From NCBI RefSeq assembly GCF_016859285.1, contig NC_053408.1:13029213-13093212 (forward strand): DNA of 64,000 bases. Direction: 5' to 3'. The notes under the pieces were generated by a model. The model made no database searches, was not told the origin of the DNA, and worked only from the letters and a program-made list of their open reading frames with translations. This DNA is from Xiphias gladius. Its lineage: Eukaryota > Chordata > Actinopteri > Istiophoriformes > Xiphiidae. A program made the position numbers and the translations under genes. Shown here one piece after another: positions 16,309 to 19,815 of this stretch (position 1 is the first letter of the stretch; the number at the start of each line of letters is the position of its first letter).

Positions 16309-19300
16309 TCACACACTCTCCTCTGTGATGTTGTTACCCGAGGGGTCCTGGCTACTGGAGACGAGAGAGAAGTTACCATCGATGAGTTTCTGTCTGGCCT
16401 TCAGGGCCTCAGGGTTGATCTCTACTGGCACTGAATGCTTCCTGCCCGGATGCAGGGGCTCAATTTTACCAGCTACAGGTGGGGGGGGGACGGAGAACTT
16501 CTTAGCGATGTTGTGCAGGACACTGCATGCCTTGATAATGTGAGACTTTTTGTTCAAGGAGGCTTCTTGTGCAAAACCAAGCTGCATCAGACACCTGAAA
16601 CGCCTCTTCATGGAGCCAAGTGTTGCCCGCATGACGTTGTGGATCTTGGCGTGGGCCTCATTGAAGCGGGTCTCATTGTCGTTTGCCGGTGCCGACACAG
16701 GAGTCAAGACATGTTTGCTTAAGTGATAGCCTTTCCCACCTTTAAGAGACACACAAGACAATGCAGTTGTCAAGACCATTAAAATGTTAATTCTATAGAT
16801 TGTAAAGTAATGTCTTTTAATAATGCAGATGAAACTAGAGATGTAGTATGGGTTGTGGAGGGTACAAACTAGCCTTGCAGGGTACAGTCATTTCACATAG
16901 CTGAGACACTCATCTGTAAACCTACTCAAAGGAAGCAATTCAGAGGATGATACAGCAGCATTAGTTAAGCAGTTTCAGGGCTAAATACAAACTAAAAGGA
17001 TGCACATAATTTCCTATGAACAAAGTGGATGTACACTTGCTTAACAGAGTATTCAGATCCCTTCCCTTTTTTTCACACTTTTGTGTTGTAGATTTAATTT
17101 GAAATGGATCAAATTTCCATTTTTGCCCATCGATTTACACCCAGCAATCCAAAATGACAAAGTGAAAACATATTTTTAGAAATCTTTGCAAATATATTAA
17201 AAATCGAAAACTGAAACCTCTCATTTACAAAAGTATTCAGACCCTTTGCTGTGGCACTCCAGATTGAAGTCAGGTGCATCCTGTTTGCTTTAATCATCCT
17301 TGAGATGTGTCTATAACTTGATTGGAGTCCAGCTGTGCCAAACGGAATTGACTGGACACAGTTTAGAAAGGCACACACCTGTGTGTATAAGGCCCCACAA
17401 TTCAAACTGCATGTCAGGCATAAAAAAAACAAAAAAAACAAGCCATGAAGTCGAGGGAACTCTCCATAAACCTCTACCATAAAATTGTAGCGAGGCATAG
17501 ATCAGGGCGAGGGCAAAAAACCATTTGTAAAGCTTTGAGTGTTCCCAGGAGCACAGTGGCCTCAATAATTGTGAAATGGAAGAAGTCTCGAACCACCAAG
17601 ACTCTTACTAGAGTTGTCTGTCCAGCCAAACCGAGTGACCGGGCCGTGGTCTGGGAGATGACCAAGAACCCAATGGTTATTCTAACAGCGCTTCAGAAGT
17701 CCTCTTCAGAGATGGGAGAACCTGCTGAGAGGACGAGCATCTCAGCAGCACTCTGTCAATCGGGCCTTTATGGTAGTGTGGCACCCTAGTGTGGCATCAT
17801 ATTACAGCCTGCCTGAAGTTTGCAAAATGGCATTTAAAGGACTCAGAGCATGAAGAAAAAGATTCTCTGGTCTTATGAGAGAAAAACTGAAGCCTTTGGA
17901 CAGAGCTCCAAAGACTGTGTCTGGTGAGCACCAGGCACCGCTCATCACGTGGCGAATTTCATTGCTACAGTGAAGCATGCTGGTGGCAGCATGGTGCTAT
18001 GGGGGTGCTTCTCAGAGACAGGGACAGGGAGACTGGTCAAATTTGAGGGAAGCATGAATGCAGCCAAATACAGAGAGGTCCTAGAAGAACACCTGCCCCA
18101 AACATGACCTGAGACTGGGGCGACGGTTTACCTTTCAGTACGGCAATGTCGTGAAGCCAACAGCCAAGGGGTGGCTTGGGGACCAGTCTCTGACTGTCCT
18201 TGAGTGGCCGAGTCAAAGCCCAGACTTAAACCCCATAGAGCATCTGTGAAGAGACGATGACAGTTCACACACTTCCCGTCCAACCTGCCAGAGTTGGAGA
18301 GGATCTGCCAGGAAGAACGAGAAACTGCCCAAATACAGGTTTGCAAAGCTTTCAGAGACTAAACTCAGAAGATCTCAAAGCTGTAATTGCTGCCAAAGGG
18401 GCTCCTACAAAGTACTAAATACTAAATACTTTTGTAAGTGAGAGATTTCAGTTTTTCATTTCTAATAAATTTGCAAAGATTTTTGAAAATGTGTTTTCAC
18501 TTTATCATGAAGGGTAATTGGGTGTAGATTGATGGGCAAAAAGAGCAATTTTTAATCCAACTGATTTTAAATATACAACACAGTAAAGTGTGCAAAAAGT
18601 GAAGCCACTGTGCATAGTAGGTGGGAAGCAGAAGAGTGATTGTAAAATATGACCGCATTGCATGGGTATTGTTACAAGATGCTAGTGACAGAGTATCAGT
18701 GTATCTAATGTGATAATCTTCAGAATTATTGAGTGTGAAACTTTACTCTTGACCTTTTGGAAACAGTGTTGTCATTTTAAAAACGTTTTAACTTCTAACT
18801 AGCTTTTTCCACTGATTTCAACCAGACGTTGCGGTTTTCCTTAGAAACGTCTGAGGAAGCCTGTGACACACACACACACGCGTGTAATGGATTTTTTTTT
18901 TTTTTTTAAATGTGTGTATTGACTAGTAGGTAACGGAATCGCTCTTGTGGATGTTTCTTTTTAAATGGGCTAATTTCACACGGATATTCAGTTAAAAACA
19001 TACACGGGCGCAAGTTACGCGTCAGTTTTCACAGATTTTGTAACTTGGACAAAACTTTTATTCATACGATCAAACGGGTCTCTGCCATGCATTGTCGTTT
19101 GACCTTTTTTTTTTCTTCTTATCTTACCAATAACCCAATACGGTCCGTGCAGCTCCTTCTCCATCTCCCTCCCTCTGAACGACGAGTCCCACATTTCCTG
19201 CTCAAACGTGCTGCCCACGCAACATTTCTCCACACTCAGTATGTTGCCGTCGGAGTCGCATATGAGCTGGCTGACGACCGACGTGTAACCCAAGGTGTTG

Positions 19301-19815
19301 ACAAAAGACCTGAACGTGCTCTTCTCATACGGAGAAGCTCGGATCTTGAAGTGGGCCGGGGCCAGGACGCCCAGCACGTTGGGGATCCCACACAAGCTCT
19401 CTGTCTTGAGGGCGACGTTGGCTTTGGCGTCCCGGGTCAGTGGGAATGAGACGAACTGATCGGACGTCCCCGCGATGACGTCGGAGACCGTGCCGATAAT
19501 GAGCGCGGCCGAGTCGGTCTGGCTCAGGCCGAGTCTGTGCAGGACGGCGGCCGAGCAGACGCCATGCGCGTAATAGTTCAGCGCCACCATGACCATCGCG
19601 TCCACGGACAGCGCAGGCTTGTCCGAGGCCACCGCCCTCGTGCGGATGCGGACAGCGTCTGTGACGAACGCGATGCAGGGTCGGGTGAGGTGGAACATCT
19701 GGAACAAAGCATCGTCGTCGAAATCGTCGAAACAGCTCGGAGTCCCACAGTCCGCCTCGCCATGTCTGAGGAGTTCTTCCTGGACCGCAAGCCACACCGG
19801 CAGAGCGAAGGCCAT
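16309..19815 (-). CDS. HARBI1-like protein derived from a Harbinger transposase, catalytic triad lost
   Basis: HARBI1 proteins descend from PIF/Harbinger DDE transposases. Exon 1 is 19815-19128 (688 nt) and exon 2 is 16739-16309; the joined frame is 1119 nt (372 residues, phase-1 junction with GT/AG borders). Family landmarks are the N-terminal helical region with [15 protein letters not shown], the [11 protein letters not shown] strand, [21 protein letters not shown] and [17 protein letters not shown]. Against human HARBI1 the catalytic Asp in VVDCIH is Ala152, the Asp in LLGDSS is Gly231 and the Glu in SVIEKTF is Arg267, all in ungapped stretches. Nuclease activity is therefore unlikely, yet no stop or frameshift is seen, suggesting a retained host role such as DNA or chromatin binding. 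Exon 1 is strikingly GC- and CpG-rich. The start is the first Met of the frame. The name HARBI1-like is by descent only. Confidence 0.82.
17044..18611 (+). mobile_element. Degenerate Tc1/mariner-type DNA transposon
   Basis: About 1.57 kb with long terminal inverted repeats of roughly 200 bases (left about 17044-17243, right about 18420-18611). Both ends read inward as ACAG.. and share phrases such as TTTTTGCCCATC and CTTACAAAAGTATT. Flanking TA is clear only on the left. It lies in the HARBI1-like intron and is not mobile on its own, since its transposase gene is broken. Confidence 0.88.
17445..18420 (+). pseudogene. Broken Tc1 transposase
   Basis: An N-terminal frame from 17445 to 17789 gives the helix-turn-helix part of a Tc1 transposase ([20 protein letters not shown], then [17 protein letters not shown]) and stops early. 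Later fragments resembling the catalytic part (for example ESGTPIN/HVWRISLL-type remnants and the region 18180-18245 encoding [18 protein letters not shown] residues) are scattered over other frames with stops. Intact relatives are about 340 residues. Confidence 0.85.

Follow-up and report, generated by a model that had tools for sequence, protein, structure and literature searches.

The window analysed here is a stretch of 64,000 nucleotides (nt) from Xiphias gladius, C9:13029213-13093212 of the 690.8-Mb assembly that is meant below by its own genome. On its reverse strand lies a gene of two coding exons whose predicted product is related to the PIF/Harbinger transposases and carries none of the three acidic residues of their catalytic DDE triad. 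It is very probably a domesticated host gene that derives from such a transposase. The parts of the gene and the features that lie over or inside it are the following:

19128..19815, reverse strand: coding exon 1 (codons 1-229 plus base 1 of codon 230), with the N-terminal region, the first catalytic position (D1) at A152 and the first half of the DDE domain
16740..19127, reverse strand: phase-1 GT..AG intron of 2388 nt
16309..16739, reverse strand: coding exon 2 (bases 2 and 3 of codon 230 through the stop codon), with the second half of the DDE domain, the C-terminal tail, the second catalytic position (D2) at G231 and the third (E) at R267
16000..16005, reverse strand: AATAAA-type signal, a consensus match only, about 300 nt past the stop codon; another lies at 15926
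18800..20050, no strand: CpG-rich stretch over the promoter, exon 1 and the start of the intron, with an observed/expected (o/e) CpG ratio of about 1.1 versus 0.44 for the window
17045..18615 (ends approximate), forward strand, opposite to the gene: old Tc1/Sleeping-Beauty-type element in the intron, with arms 80-82% complementary and interrupted transposase frames

The coordinates, the 372-residue frame and the 16739/19128 junction had been given by an earlier sequence-only reading of this DNA, and they proved exact. The spliced exons yield 372 codons and a stop codon without internal stops, and the intron runs from the donor GTAAGATAAG to the acceptor ..CTCTTAAAG. The splice model is supported because HARBI1 and two decayed transposon copies have an intron at the same position and in the same phase. 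In the protein, DDE_Tnp_4 is the sole Pfam family found (residues 155-306, 74.2 bits with a cut-off of 24.8, E 1.2e-20), and a search against NCBIfam returned 0 families. Together with the blastp match to the HARBI1-type protein (E 4e-38), the Pfam match establishes the homology to PIF/Harbinger transposases. No relatives of the protein were found in a viral-contig collection (which also gave 0 matches with a degenerate DNA motif) or in a genome-contig collection, neither of which is expected to hold fish genomes.

The HARBI1-type gene used for comparison lies on C13 (L021/L061, C13:7026xxx), and we take it to be HARBI1. Its six coding exons were spliced by hand to a protein of 346 amino acids (aa), which matches DDE_Tnp_4 over profile positions 1-158 (E 1.1e-38) and displays an acidic triad, D149, D223 and D259. 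The window protein is 27.5% identical to it over 327 aa. In the alignment A152 (GCC), G231 (GGG) and R267 (CGG) stand opposite these three residues. The replacement of all three DDE residues, as first read from the sequence, is thus borne out by an alignment that puts them in the catalytic columns. Judged by its residues, the window protein is catalytically dead, and the D, D, E triad of an active Harbinger transposase is absent. In a yeast assay, a single change of a catalytic Asp lowered excision about 150-fold (PMC2836001), and catalysis with three such changes is therefore very unlikely. The gene is not the HARBI1 locus of this genome; the two are separate genes of the same assembly, in agreement with the earlier proposal of a gene distinct from HARBI1.

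The loss of the triad is accompanied by retention of the remaining domain. Columns were counted as conserved when they were conserved in at least 60% of the relatives from the own genome, a cut below which the D1 column falls. From 73 such columns, 40 are kept by the window gene and 59 by the HARBI1-type protein. In the DDE part 34 of 53 are kept, with D2 and E among the 19 that are not. When the catalytic positions are set apart, 34 of the 51 non-catalytic conserved domain columns are retained versus none of the three catalytic ones. This is the pattern of triad loss with a retained domain that is found in dead Harbinger adaptors of the ALP1/HDP1 type.

A search of the own genome with the window protein gave 28 rows. 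Two of them are the exons of the gene, and the remaining 26 are 22-41% identical to the protein (best E 5.9e-6). By this search, the gene is single-copy in its own assembly. No credible terminal inverted repeat (TIR) enclosing the frame was found among the inverted-repeat pairs listed (the 25 longest out of 62 and out of 59); the only long inverted repeats among these are the arms of the intronic Tc1 element. The outer pairs were considered as Harbinger TIRs and rejected as chance matches, since most of them are AT-rich or match at 72-75%, with one arm inside coding sequence. The absence of flanking TIRs, which had been noted at first reading, is hence upheld, with Tc1 arms and weak pairs alone among the 25 longest listed. 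A Myb-like gene does not accompany the frame either: none of the 20 own-genome matches to Myb_DNA-bind_5 and the 38 to Myb_DNA-bind_4 falls inside the window, and the only match on C9 lies at C9:61256. At C3, C5, C19 and C24 the same searches do find Myb matches that lie no more than about 2 kb from a DDE_Tnp_4 match, and the test of neighbours is therefore able to succeed elsewhere. TIRs, a neighbouring Myb-like gene and multiple similar copies, by which a Harbinger transposon is recognized, are thus all three lacking. Because it is single-copy by search, without TIRs and without a Myb match in the window, the gene is not a transposon copy. Instead, it combines a single copy, an intact frame and a host-like gene structure, as is typical for a domesticated gene.

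The 5' end of the gene lies in a CpG island. The CpG o/e ratio is 1.07-1.08 for the promoter and exon 1, compared to 0.44 for the window and 0.32 for the intronic Tc1. Within the window, only eight of 634 segments of the size of exon 1 reach the ratio of exon 1, and seven of these eight overlap the gene. The DDE_Tnp_4 loci of the own genome have a median of 0.32 and a maximum of 0.94 (29 of 30 scored; L025 was too short and was left out). The two highest values among the 29 belong to a gene on C8 and a frame on C16, both of which are long open frames themselves.

The nested Tc1 element gives an indication of age. It was identified by HTH_SB (E 1.6e-20) and by a match to PDB 2m8e, and its frames are broken by stops and, presumably, by frame changes. 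With 40 of 3465 candidates scored, the best relatives of nearly full length in the genome are 75-76% identical to it, while fragments go up to 84% (500 nt) and 93% (42 nt). The intron is old because the Tc1 arms are only 80-82% alike and the best near-full-length relatives 75-76% identical. When the arms are assumed to have been alike at insertion, the element serves as a rough neutral clock with about 10% change per arm. Neutral decay was simulated from the present frame in 5000 runs, a run counting as a success when neither a stop nor a frameshift arose. At 0.10 changes per site the frame stayed open in 6.9% of the runs without indels. An indel rate of 0.04 per change lowered this to 0.28%, and at a rate of 0.10 none of the 5000 runs kept an open frame. 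The replacement of the triad requires changes at four of the six first and second codon bases. The joint neutral estimate for an open frame with these triad changes is at most 3e-6 at each of six distances from 0.05 to 0.5 and is highest at 0.05; both the simulation and the joint estimate are rough arguments from a single genome. From this evidence we infer purifying selection for a host function.

It could also be that the locus is a relic, i.e. a Harbinger copy or dying gene that is still open by chance and has no present function. Several observations weigh against domestication, and some of them are what such a relic would present. Triad loss is frequent in decayed copies: among the 28 own-genome relatives, in the columns where a letter exists, D1 is Asp in 11/21, D2 is Asp in 17/23 and E is Glu in 18/22, which leaves 10/21, 6/23 and 4/22 with another residue. 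Triad loss alone is little proof of domestication, given that it also befalls decayed copies. Exon 2 is CpG-poor, with an ordinary o/e ratio of 0.47. The sequence evolves fast, with a branch of 1.55 versus 0.49 for HARBI1, as would be expected under weak constraint as well. The neutral test weakens quickly with shorter distances, and at 0.05 changes per site and 0.04 indels per change, 4.2% of the runs end with an open frame. Of the 20 conserved columns in the N-terminal part, only 6 are kept. With regard to the fold, the search of solved structures by sequence gave 0 relatives, and a structure prediction for exon 1 only reached a mean predicted local distance difference test (pLDDT) score of 36, which is no usable model.

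Nevertheless, a relic is improbable. Its frame and splice sites would have had to stay intact beside a decayed nested Tc1, for which the simulation gives the 0.28% above, and neither the CpG island nor the retained non-catalytic domain columns would be expected. The fate of comparable sequences points in the same direction. The own-genome Pfam search gave at least 117 DDE_Tnp_4 matches (150 of 194 candidates scored). A hand count among the 117 listed gave 27 long matches, which span 120 or more of the 158 positions, and stops occur in 25 of them. The window gene, whose coding sequence the intron divides, is not one of the 27. The domestication that the sequence-only reading had put forward is accordingly supported in part, on the strength of the CpG-island 5' end, the old nested transposon in the intron and the intact frame, but not of the triad loss by itself.

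The position of the intron bears on the origin of the gene. It interrupts, in phase 1, the glycine codon that directly precedes the second catalytic position, and coding intron 4 of the HARBI1-type gene is identical in place and phase. A GT..AG gap at the same position and phase also occurs in the decayed transposon copies L046, where it measures 73 nt, and L054, where it measures 47 nt and may have been shortened, and several other Harbinger copies read through the site without a gap. The intron was therefore excluded as proof of HARBI1 ancestry, as L046 and L054 carry it too. Rather than having been gained after domestication, it probably goes back to a Harbinger lineage that carried an intron, as its distribution suggests.

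An alternative that is compatible with domestication is that the gene is an old HARBI1 duplicate without catalysis, a paralog rather than an independent domestication. As a dead subunit, its protein might then modulate HARBI1/NAIF1. HARBI1 is the nearest sequence by path in the 21-row tree, the match between the two proteins is full-length, and their N-termini align from the start. Both a HARBI1-type and a NAIF1-type gene are present in this genome; the gene that we take to be NAIF1 lies on C20 (Myb_DNA-bind_5, E 6e-28). A one-coding-intron ancestor would be possible as well, as mammalian HARBI1 is given two introns, "5' UTR/coding", in PMC3257199. However, the branch that joins the window gene to HARBI1 has a low support of 51/17, and the row with the highest identity to the gene is that of a transposon copy, L039 (29% over 191 columns). 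The shared intron is no marker of HARBI1, and the four other coding introns of the HARBI1-type gene are missing from the window gene. A HARBI1 duplicate is thus rather unlikely.

The domestication favoured here could have proceeded as follows. The transposon ends and the Myb partner gene would have been lost and a single intron of the transposon retained, and the gene would have come to have a CpG-island promoter at its 5' end. The catalytic acids would have disappeared while the rest of the domain stayed constrained, resulting in a pseudo-transposase. Because these acids are lost, the product should not cut DNA. By analogy, its N-terminal region may bind a Myb/SANT-type DNA-binding protein and the dead core may recruit a chromatin or transcription complex, as in Arabidopsis ALP1 and HDP1. 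In the known cases it is the N-terminal region that binds the Myb partner. Since this region keeps so few of its conserved columns, binding of a Myb partner of the old kind is unsupported by conservation, which is a further point against an adaptor of this type. Provided that the gene was domesticated, the analogy nonetheless makes a role as adaptor of a Myb/chromatin complex somewhat the better guess. As a whole, a domesticated pseudo-transposase that serves as protein scaffold is the best explanation, and one that we hold with modest confidence.

A dead subunit would also be a natural inhibitor. The protein could accordingly act as a transposon repressor that binds Harbinger Myb proteins or transposon ends and poisons the transposition of the family, of which the genome contains many remnants. 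The divergence of the N-terminal partner region speaks against it, and such a repressor is quite improbable.

At least two more open frames of the Harbinger type with altered triads were found in the genome, with triad changes that differ from those of the window gene. The C8 gene (L059, G000:C8:31090000-31096500) has open frames of 319 and 153 aa, a CpG o/e ratio near 1 and a host-like appearance. In its triad D1 is replaced by Gly, D2 is kept and E is replaced by Asp; its first 205 residues alone gave no Pfam match. A frame on C3 (L072, G000:C3:21735000-21740500) is open over 294 aa (1438-2319, forward strand), matches DDE_Tnp_4 (E 4.3e-10) and has the triad Gly/Arg/Asp. About 1.4 kb from it lies a convergent open Myb_DNA-bind_4/MADF frame of 208 aa (3766-4389, reverse strand) whose upstream side is CpG-rich, and the two frames may possibly be a co-domesticated pair of dead transposase and Myb protein. 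Searches with the window protein gave no match in the C3 locus at E 1 and none in the C8 locus at E 0.1.

Two other loci were observed in passing. The C16 frame (L009, G000:C16:23479181-23479738) is open over 472 aa, with HTH_Tnp_4 and DDE_Tnp_4 matches, an acidic N-terminal part, a glutamine run and a CpG o/e ratio of 0.68; judged by eye, its second catalytic position looks replaced. On C10, a decayed Harbinger-type element (L060, G000:C10:2444000-2452000) has Glu and Asn at its first and second catalytic positions and is interrupted near the intron site by a Tc1-like open frame.

Although each case comes from one genome, the open frames suggest that Harbinger genes were repeatedly converted here. 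A wider and doubtful conjecture is that fish repeatedly made dead Harbinger host proteins (A/G/R on C9, G/D/D on C8 and G/R/D on C3). These would form a set of pseudo-transposase adaptors besides HARBI1/NAIF1 and would correspond in vertebrates to the ALP/HDP modules of plants, with a role in controlling chromatin or in silencing Harbinger copies.

In the window the gene has two neighbours:

20587..21049, reverse strand: PIG-P gene in two pieces, upstream on the same strand; one piece scores above the Pfam cut-off (E 3.4e-11) and the last piece below it (E 0.031)
4707..15701, forward strand: probably a single receptor-type tyrosine phosphatase gene, downstream and convergent, with fn3 and Y_phosphatase matches; its extent was inferred from open frames

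The fn3 exons of the latter (4707-9733, forward strand) seem to have been multiplied in tandem, with nearly identical units of about 1.61 kb (frames 5669/7278/8907, 6161/7770 and 6692/8301).

Catalytically dead Harbinger-derived genes are already known in plants, and HARBI1 is known in vertebrates. In Arabidopsis ALP1 the triad DDE reads DGA (PMC4671723), and both ALP1 and HDP1 have lost the triad and kept a Myb partner (PMC7282668). The vertebrate genes derived from Harbinger include HARBI1 and NAIF1 (PMC9710019), and the fish MADF gene ADF-1L is of Harbinger origin as well (PMC11893794). In the open-access literature searched, no dead Harbinger-derived fish gene was described among the titles and abstract openings listed, and no paper was found on HARBI1 together with PIGP. 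The earlier designation as an undescribed fish host gene can be kept to that extent, but it reaches only as far as those searches. If the interpretation is true, the gene would be a second vertebrate transposase-derived gene, fully without catalysis, with indications of two others in this genome, and the plant pattern of a dead transposase with a Myb adaptor would recur in fish. Harbinger proteins were proposed to be prone to reuse in chromatin complexes (PMC7282668), and the genes described here would then provide a concrete set for testing this.

Compared to the known systems, the gene displays both similarities and differences. Autonomous teleost Harbinger transposons (PMC9179366) encode a transposase of the same family, and the decayed copies L046 and L054 have the intron as well. 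In contrast to the autonomous elements, the window gene has no TIRs, no Myb open reading frame and no DDE triad, and is single-copy by search. With HARBI1 it shares the DDE_Tnp_4 family, a similar length and start, and a coding intron that interrupts the same codon in the same phase. HARBI1 differs in its acidic triad, its six coding exons, its location on another contig and the low identity given above. ALP1 is a plant gene with a known association with Polycomb repressive complex 2 (PRC2) in which only two triad residues are lost, and no orthology is implied. HDP1 from Arabidopsis (PMC7282668) is likewise derived from a Harbinger transposase and has lost its triad. For HDP1/HDP2, however, the Myb partner and the histone acetyltransferase complex are known.

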